Below are positions 7,966 to 33,617 of a DNA stretch of 64,000 nucleotides, one piece after another. The notes beneath the pieces are model-generated. The model saw nothing but the letters and a program-made list of their open reading frames with translations. It was not told the DNA's origin and did no database searches. The stretch covers positions 1 through 64,000 of the forward strand of contig NZ_JBGUAW010000001.1 of the NCBI RefSeq assembly GCF_041821045.1. Direction: 5' to 3'. This DNA is from Thiohalorhabdus sp. Cl-TMA. GTDB lineage: Bacteria; Pseudomonadota; Gammaproteobacteria; Thiohalorhabdales; Thiohalorhabdaceae. The number at the start of each line of letters is the position of its first letter. The first letter of the stretch is position 1. Position numbers and translations under genes: made by a program.

Positions 7966-10900
7966 TCAGTCCGGTTCCCAGACCCGCCAATCGGCCAGCA
8001 GGGGAAAATACAGCGCCGTCCTGGCCGGCCGCTCCTCCAGACTCCGGAACAGCGCGGCGTAGCCCTCCAGCTGCTCCCGGTAGCGCTCCCGCTCGCCGTC
8101 GAGGAAGGCATCGCGGCCGCCGCCCTCGTGGCTGCCGGTCTTGTAGTCCACGATCCAGCGCGTGCCGTCGCCGTCCACGAAGGTGCGGTCGATGACACCG
8201 TTCACCAGCTTGCCGCCCAGCAGGCCGCTGACGGGATATTCGCAGCGGGCCTCGCGGTGCCCGGGGTCGAGCAGCCAGCGGCCGCGCTCGTCAGCCAGGG
8301 TGCCCTGCAGGGCCGCCACGACTCGGTCGGCGGCCTCCTCCAGCGCGGAGCCCGGTACGCCCAAAGCCGCCAGCTCCTCCAGGAAGGTGGGGCGCCGCCC
8401 GGCGATGCGCCCCTCGTCCCAGGCAGCGGGACCCTGCTCGGCGATGACGCGCAGCATGCGGTGGACGAGCGTTCCAACCCGCAGGGCGGTGGTTACCGCG
8501 CACAGGTCGGTTAGCGGCGGCTCCTCCTCACCCCAGGGCGCCGCCTCCGTGCGGGCTTCGGCCTCCCGCTGGTAGCTCTCCGGCTGGGGCTCCGGCCGCC
8601 AGCCGGCGGGCAGGCGCAGGATTCGGTCGGGGGGCGCCTCCCGCGCCGCCGGGGCGGCGGCGGGCTCGGTCAGGCCGGCCTCGAAGGCGGCCTCGAAATC
8701 CGCGCCCACCAGGGGCCACAGCATATGGAGAAGGCTGGTGCTCGGCGGGGTCAGCACCTCCTTGCTCGGCTTCCAGGGACAGTGGCCCACCAGGTGCAGG
8801 CGCCGCTTGGCCCGGGTAGTGGCTACGTAGAGGAGGCGGCGGATCTCGTTGCGGTCCCGCTCCGTCTCGATGCTGCCCAGGTAGTCGTAGATGGGGTCCT
8901 TCTCCGAGCCGGTGGGGTGCACCGGCGCCAGTAGCAGGTCCCGTCCCCGGGCGCTGGGCCGCTCCAGGTGGCGCAGCAGCTTGCCCCCCTCGCCGGCCCT
9001 CAGGTCGCGACCGAGCCCGGGCAGGATCACCACCTCGAACTCCAGCCCCTTGGCCTTGTGGATGGACATGACCTGTACGCGGCCCTCCCCCGGCTCCGGC
9101 CGGGCGTAGAGGCGCTCCATGTGCTCCTCGAGCCGGTCGGGATCGGGCAGGGCGCCCCCCTCCTCCAGCCCCTCCAACAGGTCGAGGAATTCCCGCGCGT
9201 CGTCCAGGTCCGTGGCCCGCGTCGCGGTGGCCGGACCGCCCAGGGCACGCCAGGTCCGCTCCACGCGACGACGCAGGCCGCCCCGTTGGCGGTCCGCCGC
9301 CGCCTCCAGCAGCACCTCCGCCACCCGCTCCAGACGCTGCCGGCCGTCCGCGGACAGACCCGCCCGGACCGCCTCGTCGGCCAGGCGCTCCAGGGGCAGC
9401 GCGTGGGGGGCGGCCCCGAACAGATGGTGCAGGTCCGCCAGCGACAGCCCGCAGCAGGGACCGCGCAGCACAGCCATCCAGGCGATGCGGTCCGCCGGGT
9501 GGCCGAGGGCCCGCGCCAGCGCCTGCAGGCCCTGGATCACGGGCCGCTGGGAGAGCGGCTCGATCTCCACCGCCTGGTAGGGGATGCCGGCCGCCTGCAG
9601 GCGGTCGAGGATTCGCTCCAGATGGGGTCGGGCCCGCACCAGCACCGCCACCCGCTGGGTGGTGTCCTCGGCCAGCGCCTCGCCCACCAGGCGCTCCACC
9701 TCCCGCGCCTCGGCCTCCAGGGCCGCCGCTTCCATGTCGGGGTCGTCGCCGCGCCGCTCCTGCGGGAACAGCACGGGATGGCCGGCCACCTCGGCGCCGG
9801 GAGCGGGCTCGTGGAAGGCACGCGCGGCGGTGTAGGGCACGGCACCAGTGCTGACCTCCTCCGCCCGCGGCAGGATGGCGGGAAAGGCGCCGTTCACCGC
9901 CGACACCACCGCCGGATCGCTGCGGAAGTTGACGGACAGCTCCAGGGGCTCGGGATGCAGGTCGCCTATGCCGGCGGCGCGGGCGCGCAGGAACAGGCCC
10001 ACCTCGGCGTCGCGGAAGCGGTAGATGGACTGCATGGGATCGCCCACCAGGAACAGGCTGCGCCCGTCCCCGGGCGCCCAGCCGGCGGTGAGGCGCTCCA
10101 GCATGCCCATCTGCAGGTTGGAAGTGTCCTGGAACTCGTCCACCAGCAGGTGCGACAGCCGCTGGTCCAGGGCCAGCGCCAGGTCAGTGGGCGCCTCCGG
10201 GTCGCCCAGGGCGTCGCGGGCGGCGAGGCCGAGGCCGGTAAAGTCGATCTCGCCGCGCCTCTGGAACACCAGGTCGAGCTGCGCCGCCGCCAGCGGCAGC
10301 ACCTCGATGAGCGCGTCCAGCAGCCGCCATTGGGCATCGGTGTAGCGGGGCTCGGGCAGAACCGCCACGGACTGGAGGCGCTCGGCCAGCTCCGGCGCCT
10401 GGGTGGCCAGGGCGTCCAGAAGCTCCTTCATGGCCGCCTTGCTGGCCTCGAAGGCCGCCCCCTCCCCCTCCGGCGCGTCCTTGGCGGCGGGGAAGCCCTG
10501 GGTCTTGGTCACCGACCTCCGCCAGTCGCCGTCGCCGGTAAGGAGCAGAGCGGCCAGCCCCTGCCAGGCCGCCAGGTCCTCGGGACCGGTGCCCGGGGGC
10601 CCCTCCCGCCCTTCCAGGCCTAGCAGCGCCGAATCCTTGCCCTGGGCGCGCAGGTTGGCCGCGGCGAAGGCACCCAGCCGCGCCGCCTCCCCCAGTCGAC
10701 CCACCGGGAAGGCCGCCCGGGCGGCCTCCAGGGTCTCGGTGACGGCGCGCTCCAGTGCGGCCTCGAAGAGGGGTCGGGCCTCGTCGGGCGCCAGGCGGTG
10801 ACCCACCAGGGGCGCCAGCCATTCCTCCCGGTGGGCCAGCAGGTCCGCCAGCAGGCCCTCGGCCCGCTCCCAGTTGTTGTCCAGGTGGCGCACGAGTGCC

Positions 10901-11454
10901 GCCACCTGCTCGCTGTAGCCGTCGTGCTCCACCAGCCCCAGCGTGGCGCGCGCCGCCTCCTCATACAGCGGGCCGGCGCGCTCCGTGACGCTCGGCGGCA
11001 GGCCGAATCCGGCCAGCACCGGAAGCTGGCGGGCCAAGGAGGCGCACAGGGCGTCGATGGTCTGCACCCGCAGCCGGTTGGGATTACGGGCCAGGTTCCA
11101 GCGCGCCTCCTCGGGCTTGGCCGTCTCGCGCTCCAGCACGGCGTCGGCCATGGCGCGCGTGATGCGGGCGTTGTCGTCGGCGGGCGGCTCCCCGGCCTCC
11201 GCCGCCCGCAGGGCGCCGACGATGCGGCTGCGCATCTCCTCGGCGGCCTTGCGGGTGAAGGTGATGGCCAGGATCTCCTCGGGCTCCTCCACCGTGGTGA
11301 GCAGCCGCAGGAAGCGGTTCACCAGGAGGCTGGTCTTCCCGGAGCCGGCCGGGGCCTGGACGATGAAGGAGCGCTCCGGGTCGATGGCGGCGCGGCGCGC
11401 CTCGCCGTCGGCCAGCCCCTCCTGGAAGGGAACGGCCCGCTCACTCGCCGCCAA
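7966..11454 (-). CDS. AddA/RecB-like helicase-nuclease for double-strand break repair
   Basis: A 1162-aa UvrD-family helicase with a C-terminal nuclease. Motifs in order: Walker A APAGSGKT (34-41), LLVDEFQDTSNLQ (Walker B), LFLVGDPMQSIYRFRDAE, MSIHKAKGLEFEVVILPG, LLYVATTRAKRRL, and near the C-terminus WIVDYKTGS, the D-x-K core of a PD-(D/E)XK nuclease (about 1110-1120). This is the layout of AddA. With the partner gene just upstream it should process double-strand ends for RecA. The start is TTG at 11454, overlapping the partner's stop by 14 bases, so the two are translationally coupled. The helicase core is complete. The name addA is withheld because in proteobacteria this pair forms a distinct branch. 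Confidence 0.85.
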   Translation of the reverse strand: MAASERAVPFQEGLADGEARRAAIDPERSFIVQAPAGSGKTSLLVNRFLRLLTTVEEPEEILAITFTRKAAEEMRSRIVGALRAAEAGEPPADDNARITRAMADAVLERETAKPEEARWNLARNPNRLRVQTIDALCASLARQLPVLAGFGLPPSVTERAGPLYEEAARATLGLVEHDGYSEQVAALVRHLDNNWERAEGLLADLLAHREEWLAPLVGHRLAPDEARPLFEAALERAVTETLEAARAAFPVGRLGEAARLGAFAAANLRAQGKDSALLGLEGREGPPGTGPEDLAAWQGLAALLLTGDGDWRRSVTKTQGFPAAKDAPEGEGAAFEASKAAMKELLDALATQAPELAERLQSVAVLPEPRYTDAQWRLLDALIEVLPLAAAQLDLVFQRRGEIDFTGLGLAARDALGDPEAPTDLALALDQRLSHLLVDEFQDTSNLQMGMLERLTAGWAPGDGRSLFLVGDPMQSIYRFRDAEVGLFLRARAAGIGDLHPEPLELSVNFRSDPAVVSAVNGAFPAILPRAEEVSTGAVPYTAARAFHEPAPGAEVAGHPVLFPQERRGDDPDMEAAALEAEAREVERLVGEALAEDTTQRVAVLVRARPHLERILDRLQAAGIPYQAVEIEPLSQRPVIQGLQALARALGHPADRIAWMAVLRGPCCGLSLADLHHLFGAAPHALPLERLADEAVRAGLSADGRQRLERVAEVLLEAAADRQRGGLRRRVERTWRALGGPATATRATDLDDAREFLDLLEGLEEGGALPDPDRLEEHMERLYARPEPGEGRVQVMSIHKAKGLEFEVVILPGLGRDLRAGEGGKLLRHLERPSARGRDLLLAPVHPTGSEKDPIYDYLGSIETERDRNEIRRLLYVATTRAKRRLHLVGHCPWKPSKEVLTPPSTSLLHMLWPLVGADFEAAFEAGLTEPAAAPAAREAPPDRILRLPAGWRPEPQPESYQREAEARTEAAPWGEEEPPLTDLCAVTTALRVGTLVHRMLRVIAEQGPAAWDEGRIAGRRPTFLEELAALGVPGSALEEAADRVVAALQGTLADERGRWLLDPGHREARCEYPVSGLLGGKLVNGVIDRTFVDGDGTRWIVDYKTGSHEGGGRDAFLDGERERYREQLEGYAALFRSLEERPARTALYFPLLADWRVWEPD

Positions 11455-24266: not shown

Positions 24267-26447
24267 TTACTCCAGCCGTTCCAGCCCCGCGTATTCCGTG
24301 ATCAGCCACTTCTCCTCGTCCAGATCCCGGAAGTAGACGCGCACACGCGCCTTGGGCCCGCTGCCCTCGCAGGCCATGACCACCCCGGCGCCGAAGCGCG
24401 GGTGGCGCACCCCGGCGCCCGGCGGGAAGGGCGGCGCCTCGCGGCCCTCCGCCGGCTGGACGCCGCCCCCGGCCATTCCCGCCTTGCCGAGGCCCGGACC
24501 GTCCATGGCGGGGCGGGGGGTGATGTCGTTTAGACGCTCCGGGCTGATCTCCTCCACGAAGCGCGACGGCGGATTGGTCTGGTCGCGGCCGTACAGGCGC
24601 CGGCGCCGCGCCATGGTCAGGGTCAGCTCCTCCATGGCGCGGGTCATACCCACATAACAGAGCCGGCGCTCCTCCTCCAGGGCGACCTCGTCGTCGATGG
24701 TGCGAAAGTGGGGGAACAGCCCCTCCTCCATTCCGGTGAGAAAGACCCGGGGGAACTCCAGGCCCTTGGCGGCGTGCAGGGACATGAGCTGCACGGCGTC
24801 CTCGTCGGGATCCGCGCGGCCCTCGCCCGCCTCCAGGGCGGTGTGGGCCAGGAAGGTGGACAGGGGGTCCTCCTCGTCGGGCACTTCCTCGGCGGCGAAC
24901 TGGTCCGCCGCGCTCATGAGCTCCTCCAGGTTCTCCACCCGGTTCTCGGCGTCGCCGTCACCCTTGGCCCCCCAGGCTTCCGCCAAGCCGGTGTCCTTGA
25001 GGACCCGCTCCACCAAGTCACCCAGCTCCAGGTTCCGGGAGGCCGCGGTGAGGTCATTGACGAGGCGCATGAAATTTTCCAGGCCGGTGCGGGCCTTGCC
25101 GCGCACCGCTCCCGCGGCCAGGGCGTTCTCGGCGCCCTGCCACAGCGAGCCGCCCTCCGCGGCCTCGCGCACCGTGGCCAGGGACTTCTCCCCCACCCCG
25201 CGCGCGGGCTGGTTCACCACCCGGTCGAAGCTGGCGTCATCGTCCAGGTTGCGCAGCAGGCGCAGGTAGGCCAGGGCATCCTTGATCTCGGCCCGCTCGT
25301 AGAAGCGCATGCCGCCGTAGACCCGGTACGGGAGTCCGGCGCCGAGCAGGGCCTCCTCGAACTGCCGGGACTGGGCGTGGGAACGGTACAGCACGGCGCA
25401 ATCGGCGCGGGGTCGCCCGACCTCCACCCACTTGCGGATCTCGTTCACCACGAACTGCGCCTCTTCCCGCTCCGTGGGGGCGGTCAGCCAGGCCACGGGC
25501 TGGCCCTCCTCCCGGTCCGTCCACAGCTCCTTGCCGAGCCGGCCCGTATTGCGGCGGATCACGTCGTTGGCGGCGGCGAGGATGGGCTGGGTGGAGCGGT
25601 AGTTGCGCTCCAGGCGCACCACTTGGCAATCGGGGTAGTGGTCGCGGAAGTTCAGCACATGGTCCACCCGGGCGCCGCGCCAGCCGTAGATGGACTGGTC
25701 GTCGTCGCCCACGGCGAAGAAATCGTCGCCCTCGCCCACCAGGGATTGCAGCCACAGGTGCTGAACACGATTGGTGTCCTGGAACTCGTCCACCAGGACG
25801 TGGCGGAAGCGCTCCCGGTAGTGAGCGGCCACCTCCGGCTGCTTGCGGAACAGCTCCAGGCAGCGCAGCAGCAGGTCGCCGAAGTCCACCAGCCCCGCCT
25901 GGTGAAGGGTGGCCTGGTAGCGCCGGTACAGCTCGGTGACCGTGGGGTCACCGTCCCCGCCGCCCGCCACGTCCGCCGGGGTCAGGCCGTCCTCCTTGTA
26001 GCCGTTGATGGCCCCCTGGATGCGACGCGGATCGTAGGTCTTCTCGTCCACCCCCGCCTCGCGCACCACCCGGCGGACCATGCGCTTCTGGTCCTCGGCA
26101 TCGAGGATCTGGAAGTCGCCGGGCAGCTCCAGGGCGCTCGCGTGGGCACGCAGGATGCGGTGACAGAGCCCGTGGAAGGTGCCGATCCACAGGTTGACGA
26201 CGCTGATGCCCAGCAGCTCCTCCACGCGCTCGCGCATTTCCCGGGCGGCCTTGTTGGTGAAGGTCACCGCCAGGATCGAGCCCGGCGGCTCGCCCAGGTG
26301 GCCCACCAGATGGGCGATGCGGTGGGTGAGCACGCGGGTCTTGCCGCTTCCCGCCCCGGCCAGGATGAGGTTGGGCCCGGCCGGCAGGGAAACCGCCTCG
26401 TTTTGCTGGTCGTTGAGGCCGTCGAATTGGGGCGGAAAGCTGCTCAT
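24267..26447 (-). CDS. uvrD: DNA helicase II
   Basis: A 3'-5' helicase for nucleotide excision and mismatch repair. The 726-aa product contains the SF1 motifs: GAGSGKT (31-37), VDEFQDTN, VGDDDQSIYGWRGA, LERNYRS, LMSLHAAKGLEFPRV and YVGMTRA. The last 50 residues (VRHPRFGAGVV ... VYFRDLDEEKWLI) are the C-terminal Tudor-like domain that marks UvrD and separates it from Rep. ATG at 26447. It is divergent from the CLC gene and lies 20 bases from the convergent thrB. Confidence 0.95.
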   Translation of the reverse strand: MSSFPPQFDGLNDQQNEAVSLPAGPNLILAGAGSGKTRVLTHRIAHLVGHLGEPPGSILAVTFTNKAAREMRERVEELLGISVVNLWIGTFHGLCHRILRAHASALELPGDFQILDAEDQKRMVRRVVREAGVDEKTYDPRRIQGAINGYKEDGLTPADVAGGGDGDPTVTELYRRYQATLHQAGLVDFGDLLLRCLELFRKQPEVAAHYRERFRHVLVDEFQDTNRVQHLWLQSLVGEGDDFFAVGDDDQSIYGWRGARVDHVLNFRDHYPDCQVVRLERNYRSTQPILAAANDVIRRNTGRLGKELWTDREEGQPVAWLTAPTEREEAQFVVNEIRKWVEVGRPRADCAVLYRSHAQSRQFEEALLGAGLPYRVYGGMRFYERAEIKDALAYLRLLRNLDDDASFDRVVNQPARGVGEKSLATVREAAEGGSLWQGAENALAAGAVRGKARTGLENFMRLVNDLTAASRNLELGDLVERVLKDTGLAEAWGAKGDGDAENRVENLEELMSAADQFAAEEVPDEEDPLSTFLAHTALEAGEGRADPDEDAVQLMSLHAAKGLEFPRVFLTGMEEGLFPHFRTIDDEVALEEERRLCYVGMTRAMEELTLTMARRRRLYGRDQTNPPSRFVEEISPERLNDITPRPAMDGPGLGKAGMAGGGVQPAEGREAPPFPPGAGVRHPRFGAGVVMACEGSGPKARVRVYFRDLDEEKWLITEYAGLERLE

Positions 26448-26564
26448 GGTTCGGTGTCCTGCCTTGAAAATACGCCGCCACGCCGCGAAACGCGGCGAAT
26501 CTGCGGGGATTGCGCCCGTTCCCTTTTGGGGCTGGAGGAAATTTTTGTTAGGGTGTTCAATGCA

Positions 26565-28547
26565 ATGAACTCGGAAAGCGACTCATCGGCTAGCACCCGC
26601 ACATCCGCTTCCCCGCCTGTCGAGGAGATGCCCGGGGAGACCATCGACCCGGAAGCCGCGGACGAGCCGGCTTCAGCAAGTCGGAGCGACTCCGTTTCCG
26701 GGCCCACGCCCCCCCCTGTCTCCTTTGATGCCGGCTGTGGCTGGTTCCGAAGGAAGATCCCGGCCGCCGTCCAGCTGACTCAGAACGCCCGCCTCCGGCT
26801 GGGCCTGCTGGCCATCCTGGTGGGCATCATCGCCGGTCTCGGCGCCGTGGCCTTCCGCGCCATGATCGCCCTGGTGCACAACCTGACCTTCTACGGGGCC
26901 TGGAGCCTCGAATACGACGCCAACCTGCACGCCGCCCCGAGCCCCTGGGGGGCGGGCATCATTCTGGTCCCGGTGGCTGGCGCGCTGGTAGTGGCCTTCC
27001 TGGTGAAGAACTTCGCCCCGGAAGCCAAGGGGCACGGCGTGCCAGAGGTGGACGATGCCATCTACTACGGACGGGGCATCATCCGGCCCATGGTGGCCTT
27101 CGTCAAATCCCTGGCCTCCTCCATCTCCATCGGCACCGGCGCCGCCATCGGGCGCGAGGGCCCCATCATCCAGATCGGTGCCGCCTTCGGCTCCACCCTG
27201 GGGCAGGTGGTGCGCATGCAGGAATGGCAGCGGATCACCCTGATCGCCTGTGGGGTGGCGGGCGGCATCGCGGCCACCTTCAATACCCCGCTCGGTGCCC
27301 TGCTGTTCACCATCGAGCTGACCCTGCCGGAATCCAGCGGCCGCACCCTGGTTCCCGTGGCCCTCGCCACCGGGGCCGCCACCTTCATTGGCCGCATGTT
27401 CTTCGGGCTCAGCCCGGCCTTCGACATCCCGGAGATGGCCCATCCGGCCCTGCACCTGATGAGCCCGGGCAGCTTCCTGGTCTACATCCTCTTCGGCGTC
27501 CTGCTCGGCCTCATGGCGCTGGCCTTCATCCGGGTCATCTACCGGGCCGAGGACCTCTTCGACGCCATCCCTGGCGGCTACTACGTCCGCCACCCCCTCG
27601 GCATGCTGCTGGTGGGCATCCTGATGTACGTGGTCATGACCCAGTACGGTCACTACTACATCCAGGGGGTGGGCTACGCCACCATCCAGGACATCCTATC
27701 CGACCAGCTCAGCGCGCCGCTGCTGCTCATCACGCTGTTCGCCGCCAAATTACTGGCCACCTCCCTCACCCTGGGCTCGGGGGCCTCCGGCGGCGTATTC
27801 TCGCCCTCCCTCTACCTGGGGGCGGCCCTGGGCGCGGCCTACGGCGTGGTGGTCAGCCATTTCGCTCCCGGCCTCCACCTGAACGCCGCCAACATGGCGG
27901 TGGTGGGCATGGCCGGCATGGTGGGCGGGGCCACCAGCGCGGTGCTCACCTCGGTGGTGATGATCTTCGAGATGACCCGCAACTACAACGTCATCATCCC
28001 GCTAATCATCACCGTATCCATCGCCTACGGGGTGCGGCAGCTCTTCATGCGCGACAGCATCTACACCTTCAAGCTGACCCGGCGCGGCCACTACATCCCC
28101 GACTCCCTGCAGACCAACATGTACATGCTGCGGCGCGCCCTGGACCTGCAGGAAGCGCCGGTAATCCGCATCGACAGCCGGGGGACCCTCGCCCAGCTCC
28201 GGGAGGAGCTCCCCGCCGACCAGCCCCATCCCCATGTGCTGCTGGAGCGGGACGGCAAGGTGGAGTCGGTGCTTACGGCGGAGAGGCACCGCTTCCTGGA
28301 CGAGGAAGGCGAGCCCCACGCCTGGATCGAGGAGCACGTGGACAGCCGCTTCGTGGTGGTCGGTCAGGAAGACATGATCTTCGACGTGGTGGCCAAGCTC
28401 CGAGCCAACGGGGCGGAGATCGCCCTGCTCACCCGCGACGGCCGCCTCAAGGGGGCCGGTAGCGTGGTGGGTATCCTGACCCTGGACGACATCGCCCGCT
28501 GCAGCAATCTCACCCGCCACATCCTGGCCACGGGCCAAGAGGCCTAG
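26565..28547 (+). CDS. CLC-family chloride channel/antiporter with C-terminal CBS region
   Basis: A 660-aa inner-membrane protein. Residues 1-60 are a hydrophilic, Ser/Pro/Asp-rich tail; the CLC core spans about 75-500. Selectivity motifs: KGHGVPEVD in place of GSGIP, GREGPIIQIGA with gating Glu198, and GGVFSPSLYLGA. The residue at the internal proton-glutamate position is Leu252 (FTIELTL), as in channels rather than in ClC-ec1, while the central Tyr is kept (RNYNVIIPL). The C-terminal part (about 530-660) has a CBS-like pair. The ATG at 26565 is used; an in-frame GTG at 26553 is possible. The CLC gene at 28578 converges with it, 30 bases away. Confidence 0.9.
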   Translation: MNSESDSSASTRTSASPPVEEMPGETIDPEAADEPASASRSDSVSGPTPPPVSFDAGCGWFRRKIPAAVQLTQNARLRLGLLAILVGIIAGLGAVAFRAMIALVHNLTFYGAWSLEYDANLHAAPSPWGAGIILVPVAGALVVAFLVKNFAPEAKGHGVPEVDDAIYYGRGIIRPMVAFVKSLASSISIGTGAAIGREGPIIQIGAAFGSTLGQVVRMQEWQRITLIACGVAGGIAATFNTPLGALLFTIELTLPESSGRTLVPVALATGAATFIGRMFFGLSPAFDIPEMAHPALHLMSPGSFLVYILFGVLLGLMALAFIRVIYRAEDLFDAIPGGYYVRHPLGMLLVGILMYVVMTQYGHYYIQGVGYATIQDILSDQLSAPLLLITLFAAKLLATSLTLGSGASGGVFSPSLYLGAALGAAYGVVVSHFAPGLHLNAANMAVVGMAGMVGGATSAVLTSVVMIFEMTRNYNVIIPLIITVSIAYGVRQLFMRDSIYTFKLTRRGHYIPDSLQTNMYMLRRALDLQEAPVIRIDSRGTLAQLREELPADQPHPHVLLERDGKVESVLTAERHRFLDEEGEPHAWIEEHVDSRFVVVGQEDMIFDVVAKLRANGAEIALLTRDGRLKGAGSVVGILTLDDIARCSNLTRHILATGQEA

Positions 28548-28577
28548 CCGGCCCCGCGCGTGAACGGCCCCTCCGCT

Positions 28578-30332
28578 TCATCCCTCCGCGCCGTGCGCGT
28601 GCGATCCGTCGTCCCGCCGCCGCATCTGTTCCAGGCAGGCCCGCACCACCTCGGTCCGATTCACCAGCCCGATGAGCACCTCCGGGTCGCGCGGTGACCG
28701 CACCGGGAAGCCCTCCAGGCCGTAGGAGGCCATGAGGTCCATGGCCTTCACCGCGCCATCCCCCGGATAGAGGTAGCGGAGATCCTCGGCGCTGTGCAGG
28801 TAGGGACCCAGATCGATCCGCCCTTCCTCGTCCGGGTAGGCCAGCCCCGCCTGCAGCAGTCCCCCCAGGTCCACCAGTCCCCGGAACCGCCCCTCCTCGT
28901 AGACCGGGAACACCACCTGAATGCCCGAATCCGACTGCGCCGCGCGCAGCTCCCCGGCGTCCACCCGCAGAGGCAGGTTCCGGTAGTCCGACTGCATCAC
29001 CTCATTCACCGGTACGGTGCACTTCTGCCCGGCCTCCGGGAGGGTGGGCTCCGATAGCTCCCGTAGATGGAGGGTCCAAGCGAAAATGGACTGGGCCTTG
29101 AACCAGTCCCGGGAGGTGACCGCCGCCGTCACCGTCGCCAGCATCACCGGCAGGATGATGCCCGGATGCCGCACCAGCTCGAAGACGGCGATGATGGCGG
29201 AGAACGGCGCATTCAGTATGGCGGCCATCCCGGCCGCCATGCCGATGATGGCGTAGATGCCGGTCCCCCCTACCGGGAGCCCCAGCAACCGTCCGCCTTC
29301 CGCCACCAGCGCCCCCACCAGGGCGCCCATGAACAGGGAAGGACCGATGGCCCCGCCACGCGCCTGGGCGCCGATGCTCACCGCCGTCGCGGCCAGCTTG
29401 GCCAACAGCAGGATGGCCAGCGTGGCGAGGGGAAAGACCCCGGCGAACACCCTCTCCATGGTGCCGTAGCTGACGCCCATGACCGCCGGCACCTCCACGG
29501 CGATCATCCCCACCAGGAGCCCGCCGATCCCGGGAAGGGCCCAGGTGGGTACGGGGACGCGCTGGCTGAGGTGGTAGATCCCCTCCACGCCGCGCAACAG
29601 GGCGAAGGATACCAGTGCGGCACCCAGACCGATGAACCAGTCCAGGGGGAGGAACCACAGGGAGTGGGCGGGGTATTCCGGGACATCCAGCAGGACCCCG
29701 GGACCGATGCCGATCTGCGCCACCACGGTGGCGATGACCGCGCTCACCACTACCGGCGCGAACAGGACCAGGGTGTACTCGCCGAGGATCACCTCCAGGG
29801 CGAAGACCACGCCGGCCAAGGGGATATTGAGGGCCCCGGAGAAGGCCCCGGCGGCCCCGGCGGCCACCAGGATGCGGAGATGCTCGGGGGGGACCCCGAG
29901 CCGCTGACCCACCAGGGAGCCGATGGCGGCGCCCATGTGGATGGAGGGACCCTCCCGGCCCACCGAATGGCCGGAGCCAATGGCCAGGGTGCCGAAGAGG
30001 AACTGGGCGAAGGCGCTCTTGGCCCCCAGGTGGCTGGCGCCGTAGGCCACCCGCTCCAGCACCCGGCTCACGCCCACGTCGGCGTGGCGGGGAAAGGCGT
30101 AGGCCGCGAGCAGGCCCACGGCCAGCCCTCCGGCGGCGGGAAGAAGCAGACGTCCCCAGGCCGGCAATCCGGCAAACCCGGCACCCAGGGTGAACAGCTC
30201 GGCGGCCTCGCCGATGGCGATCCGGAAGAGCACCACCACCAAGCCCGCCAGCACGCCCACGACCACCCCCAGGGCCATGAGCCGCAGGCTCCAGTGCCGG
30301 GTCCAGGTGCGCAGCAGCCGGGCTAGGTCCAT
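28578..30332 (-). CDS. CLC-family chloride channel/antiporter (second, divergent copy)
   Basis: A 584-aa membrane protein with about ten hydrophobic helices, followed by a C-terminal CBS pair (about 450-575). GREGPSIHMGAA with Glu127 is intact. The GSGIP motif is replaced by ADVGVSR, the third motif is GGAIGPSLFMGA (Ile for Phe), the internal proton-glutamate position holds Val181 (FALEVIL) and the position of the central Tyr is Pro (RHPGIILP). It is therefore a different subtype from the CLC at 26565-28547, not a recent duplicate. Anion selectivity and channel versus antiport mode cannot be told. It ends 30 bases from the convergent copy and is followed upstream by glmS on the same strand. 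Confidence 0.88.
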   Translation of the reverse strand: MDLARLLRTWTRHWSLRLMALGVVVGVLAGLVVVLFRIAIGEAAELFTLGAGFAGLPAWGRLLLPAAGGLAVGLLAAYAFPRHADVGVSRVLERVAYGASHLGAKSAFAQFLFGTLAIGSGHSVGREGPSIHMGAAIGSLVGQRLGVPPEHLRILVAAGAAGAFSGALNIPLAGVVFALEVILGEYTLVLFAPVVVSAVIATVVAQIGIGPGVLLDVPEYPAHSLWFLPLDWFIGLGAALVSFALLRGVEGIYHLSQRVPVPTWALPGIGGLLVGMIAVEVPAVMGVSYGTMERVFAGVFPLATLAILLLAKLAATAVSIGAQARGGAIGPSLFMGALVGALVAEGGRLLGLPVGGTGIYAIIGMAAGMAAILNAPFSAIIAVFELVRHPGIILPVMLATVTAAVTSRDWFKAQSIFAWTLHLRELSEPTLPEAGQKCTVPVNEVMQSDYRNLPLRVDAGELRAAQSDSGIQVVFPVYEEGRFRGLVDLGGLLQAGLAYPDEEGRIDLGPYLHSAEDLRYLYPGDGAVKAMDLMASYGLEGFPVRSPRDPEVLIGLVNRTEVVRACLEQMRRRDDGSHAHGAEG

Positions 30333-30383
30333 GGGCCTCGCTGGGGTTCGCGGCTTCGGGGCGGGTCCCGGCCGATGGTCCGG

Positions 30384-32216
<1,833 letters not shown>

Positions 32217-33599
32217 CTATTCCTGCTCCTCCTTGGCCCGCTCTTCCGGGCGCTTCCAGTCGTGACGGGTGAACTGTTTGGCCCTGGAGAGGGTAAGGGC
32301 TCCCTCCGGGGCGTCCTTGGTGATGGTCGACCCCGCGCCGATGGTCGCCGCCTCACCCACGGTAACCGGAGCCACCAGCTGGACTGCGGAGCCGATGAAG
32401 GCGCCGGGACCGATCACGGTCCGGTGCTTTCGGTAACCGTCGTAGTTGCAGGTGATGGTCCCCGCGCCGAGATTGGCTCCGGCCCCCACTTCCGCGTCCC
32501 CCACGTAGCTGAGGTGGTTGGCCTTGGCGCCAGCGCCCAGCCGCGCCTTTTTCACCTCGACGAAATTGCCCACCTTGCTGCCCTGCTCGAGGATCGTGTC
32601 CGGACGCAGCCGCGCGAAGGGCCCCACCGACGCCCCGGGACCCACCGCAGCCCCGTCCACGTGGCTGTAGGCCTCCAGCCGGGCGCCCGCACCGATCCGG
32701 CAATTGCGCAGCACGCAGCCCGGCCCGATGTGCGCCCCGGCCTCCAGGACCACCTCGCCCTCGAACTGGCAATCGGGATCCACCACCACATCGGGCGCGG
32801 GCACTACTTGGCCGTACACCACCGTCCGTTCCGGTGCCCGAAGGGTGACCCCCTCGGCCATGAGGGCCTCGGCGATGCGGCGCTGGTAGCTATGCTCCAC
32901 GATGGCCAGATGGCTGCGGTTGTTCACGCCCTGCACCTCTCCGGGATCGGCCACCCGGTGGGCGAGCACGCCGCGCGCCCCGGCCGCCATGCCAACCACA
33001 TCCGTAAGGTAGTACTCGCCCTGGGCGTTGTCCGCGGTGAGGGCTTCCAGCCAGGGTCCGAGGCGTTCCCCCCGTACCGCCAGCGTACCGGTAAACACCT
33101 CCCCGATGGAACGCTCTTCGGGTCCGGCGTCCTTCTCCTCCCGGATCCCGGTGACACGCCCCCGGTCGTCCCGAAGTATGCGTCCGTAGCCCGTGGGATC
33201 CTCAGGGTGGGTGGTGAGGATGCCCAGGTCGTGGTCGGCCGCCTCCAGGGCCTCCGTCCATTGGGCGAGGGTGCTCCCGCGCAGCAGGGGAACGTCGCCG
33301 TTCAGCACGAGCACCCAATCGGCATCCGAGAAATCGGAGCCCGCGCACTGCACCGCATGCCCGGTGCCCCGCTGCTCGGGCTGCTCCACCAGGGTCACGT
33401 CCGGCGCTTCCACCCGTTCCCGGACCCGCTCCGCCCCGTGGCCCACCACCAGTCGAATGGCCGAGGGCGACAGGGAGCGGGTGGCTTCGAGGACGTGCTC
33501 CACCATGGGCCGCCCTCCCACCTCATGGAGCACCTTGGGCAGGTCGGAGCGCATGCGTGTGCCCTGGCCTGCGGCCAAAATGACTACCGTCAAGTTCAA
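32217..33599 (-). CDS. glmU: Bifunctional UDP-GlcNAc pyrophosphorylase / glucosamine-1-P acetyltransferase
   Basis: Acetylates glucosamine-1-phosphate and couples it to UTP to give UDP-GlcNAc. The 460-aa product has the pyrophosphorylase signature (VVILAAGQGTRMRSDLPK), VEHVLE, and a left-handed beta-helix acetyltransferase half (VEVKKARLGAGAKANHLSYVG, NYDGYRKHRTVIG). TTG at 33599 is preferred because the protein then starts MNLTVVILAAG like other GlmU proteins and GGAGG lies 7-8 bases upstream; a TTG at 33617 is also open. It sits between atpC and glmS and its stop touches glmS. The terminator hairpin of the atp operon lies only a few bases upstream of its ribosome-binding site. Confidence 0.95.
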   Translation of the reverse strand: MNLTVVILAAGQGTRMRSDLPKVLHEVGGRPMVEHVLEATRSLSPSAIRLVVGHGAERVRERVEAPDVTLVEQPEQRGTGHAVQCAGSDFSDADWVLVLNGDVPLLRGSTLAQWTEALEAADHDLGILTTHPEDPTGYGRILRDDRGRVTGIREEKDAGPEERSIGEVFTGTLAVRGERLGPWLEALTADNAQGEYYLTDVVGMAAGARGVLAHRVADPGEVQGVNNRSHLAIVEHSYQRRIAEALMAEGVTLRAPERTVVYGQVVPAPDVVVDPDCQFEGEVVLEAGAHIGPGCVLRNCRIGAGARLEAYSHVDGAAVGPGASVGPFARLRPDTILEQGSKVGNFVEVKKARLGAGAKANHLSYVGDAEVGAGANLGAGTITCNYDGYRKHRTVIGPGAFIGSAVQLVAPVTVGEAATIGAGSTITKDAPEGALTLSRAKQFTRHDWKRPEERAKEEQE

Positions 33600-33617
33600 A
33601 GCTCGTTCACCCTCCAA

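Follow-up and report, generated by a model that had tools for sequence, protein, structure and literature searches.

We analysed a window of 64,000 nucleotides from Thiohalorhabdus sp. Cl-TMA (contig NZ_JBGUAW010000001.1, positions 1 to 64,000), which carries two genes for CLC proteins side by side, here named CLC-A and CLC-B. The reading that we favour, and that we consider reasonably probable as a whole, is that they are two anciently diverged CLCs, that CLC-A is a coupled exchanger and CLC-B is weakly coupled or uncoupled, and that CLC-A was gained later. Each belongs to a large bacterial subfamily that normally lacks the internal proton glutamate. CLC-A is a predicted proton-coupled Cl-/H+ exchanger that keeps the gating glutamate, the water-organising Glu251, the slide phenylalanines and the central tyrosine, and its protons would travel along a water path without a fixed internal carboxylate. 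For CLC-B we predict a gated anion pathway whose coupling to protons is weak or absent; the protein keeps the gating glutamate and Glu180 but has lost the central serine, the internal glutamate, both phenylalanines of the aromatic slide and the hydroxyl of the central tyrosine. Both proteins are predicted to be homodimers and to carry a CBS-like tail on the cytosolic side. Coupling, the homodimers and the physiological role are predictions made from sequence.

Gene identity, residues, subfamily placement, conservation and synteny were observed or computed. Both proteins match the Pfam family Voltage_CLC (PF00654) over its full length and above its curated cut-off of 24.8 bits (CLC-A, 299.7 bits, profile positions 1-344 of 346; CLC-B, 239.7 bits, positions 1-346 of 346), and the genome of 3.74 Mb has no other PF00654 gene. 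The two genes are convergent, tail to tail, with 30 bp between them, which excludes an operon arrangement. An earlier note on this DNA had described two different, adjacent CLC proteins that are not recent duplicates, and both statements hold: recent duplication is rejected by an identity of 29% across 379 amino acids and by the placement of the two proteins in different deep clades of our tree. The closest solved structures for both are ClC-st1 and ClC-ec1. AlphaFold models (mean predicted local distance difference test score of 79.0 for CLC-A and 78.7 for CLC-B) match ClC-ec1 (1ots) over 421 residues (Z 47.6) and 420 residues (Z 43.7), with identities in the structural alignment of 30% and 23%, respectively. 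The input alignments of the models were shallow (25 and 24 rows), and the other rows for the CLC-B model were CLC-A and A-family proteins. Because the fold matches give residue ranges only, residues were placed by sequence alignment, and equivalences to ClC-ec1 (whose numbering is used below for alignment positions) were taken from MAFFT alignments.

The external gating glutamate is kept in both proteins (E198 in CLC-A and E127 in CLC-B, aligned with E148), as the earlier note had stated. The residues at E203 are Leu252 and Val181, again in agreement with that note, and this assignment is secure because the block from N191 to E203 is gap-free in the alignments of both proteins. A structure-based alignment with a glutamate at the internal position, which the note had named as the contrary outcome, did not arise; the models match ClC-ec1 over about 420 residues, as ranges only. 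The region of the GSGIP motif reads GHGVP in CLC-A and DVGVS in CLC-B (V86 and S89), so that the motif of CLC-B is indeed altered, and neither protein has the central Ser107. CLC-A retains K131. A proline had been placed at the central tyrosine of CLC-B, but in the MAFFT alignment the residue at Y445 is Phe417, in the context SIFAW. His157 at the central serine of CLC-A, and Leu168 and Ile329 at the slide positions of CLC-B, had been overlooked (Table 1).

Table 1. Coordinates in the window of the two CLC genes, the C-terminal domain of CLC-A and the pore and proton-path residues (positions of ClC-ec1 abbreviated as ec1).
Feature	Coordinates	Strand	Remark
CLC-A gene	26565..28547	+	660 aa; GHGVP subfamily of CLC proteins
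CLC-A His157 codon	27033..27035	+	ec1 Ser107 position, central Ser
CLC-A Glu198 codon	27156..27158	+	external gating Glu, ec1 E148
CLC-A Phe239 codon	27279..27281	+	Phe_ex, ec1 F190, kept
CLC-A Glu251-Leu252 codons	27315..27320	+	ec1 E202 kept; Leu for E203
CLC-A Phe412 codon	27798..27800	+	Phe_cen, ec1 F357, kept
CLC-A Tyr500 codon	28062..28064	+	central Tyr, ec1 Y445, kept
CLC-A C-terminal domain	28137..28529	+	strand/helix pattern of model; probable CBS pair, unrecognised by Pfam
CLC-B gene	28578..30332	-	584 aa; ClcB-like subfamily, CBS-like domain at C-terminus
CLC-B Phe417 codon	29082..29084	-	ec1 Y445; context SIFAW
CLC-B Ile329 codon	29346..29348	-	Phe_cen, ec1 F357, lost
CLC-B Arg325 codon	29358..29360	-	beside helix-N anion-binding loop
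CLC-B Glu180-Val181 codons	29790..29795	-	ec1 E202 kept; Val for E203
CLC-B Leu168 codon	29829..29831	-	Phe_ex, ec1 F190, lost
CLC-B Glu127 codon	29952..29954	-	external gating Glu, ec1 E148
CLC-B Val86 codon	30075..30077	-	ec1 Ser107 position

CLC-B falls in a clade of 20 rows (support 99) with Val or Ile at position 203 and, as a rule, both Ile at 357 and Phe at 445, and among 274 genomes sampled from the class 67 had relatives at E<=1e-60. We also compiled a wider set of 172 distinct sequences, which was enriched for relatives of the A and B types and took in E. coli ClcA and ClcB; only three of them, all from the genus of the window, combine Leu at F190 with Ile at F357. The same pair is found in the CLC-B orthologue of a genome of another family (G300), which is 77% identical, while Phe190 is kept in all 21 further B-family sequences. 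Outside CLC-B and its orthologues, no sequence was found that lacks both phenylalanines of the aromatic slide. At the position of Arg325 all four orthologues have Arg, and 29 of 30 B-family rows have Pro. A search of the membrane part of CLC-B for a compensating buried carboxylate found no acidic residue that all four orthologues share, that ClC-ec1 lacks and that lies at a known proton-path alignment position. The dN/dS ratio (nonsynonymous to synonymous substitution rates) of 0.21 to 0.30 in the six pairs among the four orthologues indicates that CLC-B is under purifying selection and is maintained as it is. Two histidines, His122 and His132, flank the gating glutamate of CLC-B (window 29937-29969, minus strand) and are kept in 22 and 29 of the 30 B-family rows, respectively. 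The G300 orthologue lies at 9283-11286 of locus L259, with no glmS or uvrD neighbours in the stretch examined.

PMC7274781 gives conservation in the CLC family as about 94% for F190 and about 76% for F357, describes the aromatic slide as conserved between exchangers and channels, and reports that mutation of ClC-ec1 shifts the Cl-:H+ ratio to about 8.6:1 (F190A) and 4.3:1 (F357A) with slower turnover, F357L behaving like F357A. Taken together, these mutant data, the slide losses of CLC-B and purifying selection suggest that coupling in CLC-B is weak or absent. Several points weigh against our reading. CLC-F proteins also lack the equivalents of Ser107, Glu203 and Phe357, and CLC-F antiporters are reported to be proton-coupled (PMC12035849), so the losses in CLC-B are no proof of uncoupling. 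The mutant ratios for F190 and F357 come from the ClC-ec1 background and not from that of CLC-B. The replacement of the central serine by histidine could alter anion selectivity in CLC-A. Finally, the GC content (0.675) and third-position GC content (GC3, 0.909) of CLC-A equal the values of its neighbours, so nothing in its composition points to a recent gain. A bolder version of our reading, possible in our view but doubtful, is that CLC-B is naturally uncoupled: every known proton-route side chain would have been removed in one lineage and an arginine added near the anion-binding loop, with the gating glutamate kept, leaving a channel or slippage pathway that a coupled CLC-A joined later.

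The later arrival of CLC-A is suggested by gene order. CLC-B belongs to a conserved glmU-glmS-CLC-uvrD row of the genus, into which CLC-A would have been inserted in inverse orientation. Both congeners (G001 and G002) have the row glmU-glmS-CLC-B-uvrD, in which CLC-B and uvrD have no further CLC gene between them, at loci (L056 and L057) that are the counterparts of the window row at 24267-33617, where CLC-A sits between these two genes in inverse orientation. At E<=1e-90 no A-type gene was found in G001 or G002, and the sole match to CLC-A in each is its own CLC-B. Window UvrD and GlmS are about 91% identical to those of G001 and 78-80% identical to those of G002; with the window nearer to G001, one gain of CLC-A is simpler than two losses. 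The closest CLC-A homologue, in a record named as an Emcibacter sp. metagenome-assembled genome (L058, 4570-8767), is 62% identical, whereas the best UvrD match in that genome is 44% identical to window UvrD, which speaks for transfer between lineages. Compared with ten hosts, window UvrD is 49-53% identical to that of six, 44-46% to that of three and 41% to that of the tenth. Two of the six are named Gammaproteobacteria in their records and the genera of the other four we take to be Gammaproteobacteria; the three hosts at 44-46% are presumably alpha- or deltaproteobacterial. These identities make a gammaproteobacterium the probable host of the window. CLC-A was probably gained by the window species between CLC-B and uvrD. 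The alternative, that CLC-A is ancestral in the genus and was lost in the other two species, would fit its native-like composition but seems unlikely, as it takes two losses instead of one gain if the order is ((window, G001), G002), as the UvrD and GlmS identities suggest, and A-type genes (E<=1e-90) occur in just 16 of the 274 genomes sampled from the class, and these are almost all from different families. The CLC-B orthologue in G300 was itself probably acquired by horizontal transfer.

Two further observations concern these neighbourhoods. In G001 the end of CLC-B and the start of uvrD touch or overlap, and in the window they are separated by CLC-A. The A-type gene of the Emcibacter-named genome also adjoins uvrD, in the same orientation, unlike that of the window.

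To measure how common a missing internal glutamate is, we sampled 100 genomes of the phylum, which gave 98 CLC matches in 79 genomes; two fragments were dropped, leaving 96 genes, the two of the window included. The residue at position 203 was Val in 59, Glu in 21, Leu in 13, Ile in two and Thr in one, so that 75 of 96 are without glutamate there. E202 was conserved in 96 of 96 genes and E148 in 94; in the wider set E202 was present in 172 of 172 sequences and Glu203 in 36. Absence of the internal glutamate is the common state in bacterial CLCs. Published work reports proton pumping with robust stoichiometry by several homologues that have no titratable residue at this position, and by ClC-ec1 E203A with somewhat degraded coupling (PMC7253180); it also describes E202 as a strictly conserved water organiser and had already noted exceptions to the internal glutamate among antiporters (PMC3519907). 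Since most genes of the sample lack Glu203 and non-titratable homologues pump protons, the step from the absence of the internal glutamate to a channel fails; the residue at this site is not diagnostic of a CLC channel, and the earlier description of Leu252 and Val181 "as in channels" does not stand. The proposal that CLC-A and CLC-B are both gated anion channels through loss of the internal glutamate draws on their Leu and Val, on the valine found at this position in all known CLC channels (PMC3519907) and on the missing aromatic slide of CLC-B. It appears rather improbable given the 75 of 96 sampled genes, the exchangers among the non-titratable homologues (PMC7253180) and the retention of Phe_ex, Phe_cen and Tyr_cen in CLC-A.

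In a tree of 103 representatives, the Glu203 rows form one group of 28 (support 92), and the Glu state requires at least two changes. The CLC-A clade comprises 21 rows (support 100) with the motif GHGVPEV, Leu or Ile at position 203, and Phe357 and Tyr445 kept. Judged by its sequence, CLC-A adds a member to a widespread GHGVP subfamily, and 33 loci of this subfamily lie in records that carry the names of various proteobacteria, Thermotogae, Bacteroidales, Bryobacteraceae and other groups. In our literature search, going by titles and the openings of abstracts, no study dealt with this subfamily.

His157 does not vary across the 24 rows of the CLC-A alignment (A2), and His stands at position 107 in 29 of 29 A-family rows, which were picked for having it and hence give no independent count. 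If the proton site had moved in the A subfamily, His157 would be a titratable internal site replacing the internal glutamate. This invariance would fit such a move, as would the wider set, in which each of the 36 sequences with Glu203 has Ser107 and none has His107. However, the association of Ser107 with Glu203 amounts to two independent pairs on the tree, for which a sign test is powerless, so it is inseparable from shared ancestry. Furthermore, two A-family loci (L257 and L258) combine Ser107 with Leu203, other families without Glu203 have Arg, Asp, Val or Gln at position 107, and the side chain of His157 may face the anion and not the proton path. We regard this relocation as very unlikely for CLC-A. 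A swap of His for Glu as a general rule is unsupported, since it rests on the two pairs and is broken among A-types by L257 and L258.

The surroundings of A-type genes were compared across 45 distinct loci (51 fetched, six duplicates), with a Pfam scan that covered part of the cluster members. Five loci, of a group named Thermotogae or Mesoaciditoga (L062, L063, L065, L066 and L067), have an Mrp-like antiporter operon beside the A-type gene, four have Na+/H+ or K+/H+ antiporter genes and three distinct loci have P-type cation ATPase genes; most show no antiporter or ATPase neighbour, and short flanks are common among the loci. The neighbours at these loci fit a possible role of A-type CLCs in H+, Cl- or charge balance. 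A second CLC gene adjoins the A-type gene in five of the 45 loci (L072, L083, L257, L258 and L260), two of them from one genus; the two CLC matches at L088 are, by their position, pieces of one gene. The partners are another type without Glu203, a ClcA type with Glu203, a type with Tyr for the gating glutamate and a second A-like gene. Adjacent CLC genes of differing types are thus a recurrent arrangement. The Tyr-bearing partner, at L257 (1-1431, minus strand) and L258 (3277-4677, plus strand), has GQYGP in place of GREGP.

The tail of CLC-B scores 23.6 bits with the CBS family PF00571, just under the cut-off of 24. The tail of CLC-A has no Pfam CBS match; its model shows a CBS-like strand and helix pattern, and the alignment of the model to cmCLC and CLC-7 extends to residue 651-653 with a high root-mean-square deviation. 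On this modelled pattern the tail is a probable CBS pair. The frame of CLC-A is open for 1279 codons (window 24708-28547, plus strand) and runs along the antisense strand of uvrD; this effect of high GC content could lead gene prediction astray.

The distinction between channels and exchangers in CLCs is an open question, and mechanistic work has mostly used ClC-ec1-type proteins with the internal glutamate, which are the minority in our sample (21 of 96). CLC-B is a variant with a combination of losses absent from the other sequences examined, its orthologues apart, and turns a defined mechanistic question into a testable one. Together with its three orthologues it provides natural proteins that have the gating glutamate and are without both slide phenylalanines, and so a direct test of the need for the slide; CLC-A, with slide and tyrosine intact and no internal glutamate, is a matching control from the same genome.

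Among known systems, CLC-F fluoride/proton antiporters resemble both proteins in the absence of Ser107 and Glu203, and CLC-B also in the absence of Phe357, but differ in having a helix-N glutamate (E318, GGEVTP), which aligns with Val411 in CLC-A and Ala328 in CLC-B; the CBS-like tails of CLC-A and CLC-B are a further difference. A CLC-F-like fluoride exporter is barely credible for either gene and was rejected, since the shared losses are countered by the missing helix-N glutamate, by the low rank of CLC-F among solved-structure matches of CLC-A (none at 1e-3 for CLC-B) and by the lack of a fluoride riboswitch in the window, where no Rfam family was found at all. The suggestion that the two proteins serve distinct ions or modes holds in part: the tree and the differing pore residues favour distinct modes, and the results give no link to another ion for CLC-A or CLC-B. 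As a CLC-F yardstick we used the protein of L214 (genome G082), which is clearly of CLC-F type (GREGT and GGEVTP; E 6.7e-59 to 6d0j). A separate CLC subfamily (L212, L213, L215 and L217-L223) has GLEAG, GVEAG or GLEAS for GREGP, with Arg147 replaced, and an altered GSGIP region; its gating glutamate and E202 are kept.

The best NCBIfam match of both proteins is NF002505 (PRK01862, ClcB-like voltage-gated chloride channel protein; CLC-A 255.9 bits, CLC-B 252.2 bits), which spans almost the whole length of CLC-B, tail included; both scores are below its curated cut-off of 482 bits, and we know of no assayed member. E. coli ClcB (b1592, annotated as a putative chloride:H+ antiporter) shares Val at the internal glutamate position but has Phe at 357, Tyr at 445 and Tyr at 190, is shorter (418 amino acids) and sits on a long branch elsewhere in the tree. 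The alignment range of cmCLC (3org) extends to the tails of both models, although this protein is eukaryotic and 21-22% identical to CLC-A and CLC-B; it is described as a transporter with Thr at the internal glutamate position (PMC7253180). The Cl-/H+ exchangers ClC-ec1 and ClC-st1 (ClcA, EriC) differ from CLC-A and CLC-B in Glu203, Ser107 and the CBS-like tail, and both proteins score under the 350-bit cut-off of the NCBIfam ClcA equivalog (CLC-A 250.2 bits, CLC-B 139.2 bits). With these exchangers both share the fold, the gating glutamate and E202, and CLC-A also shares F190, F357, Y445 and K131.

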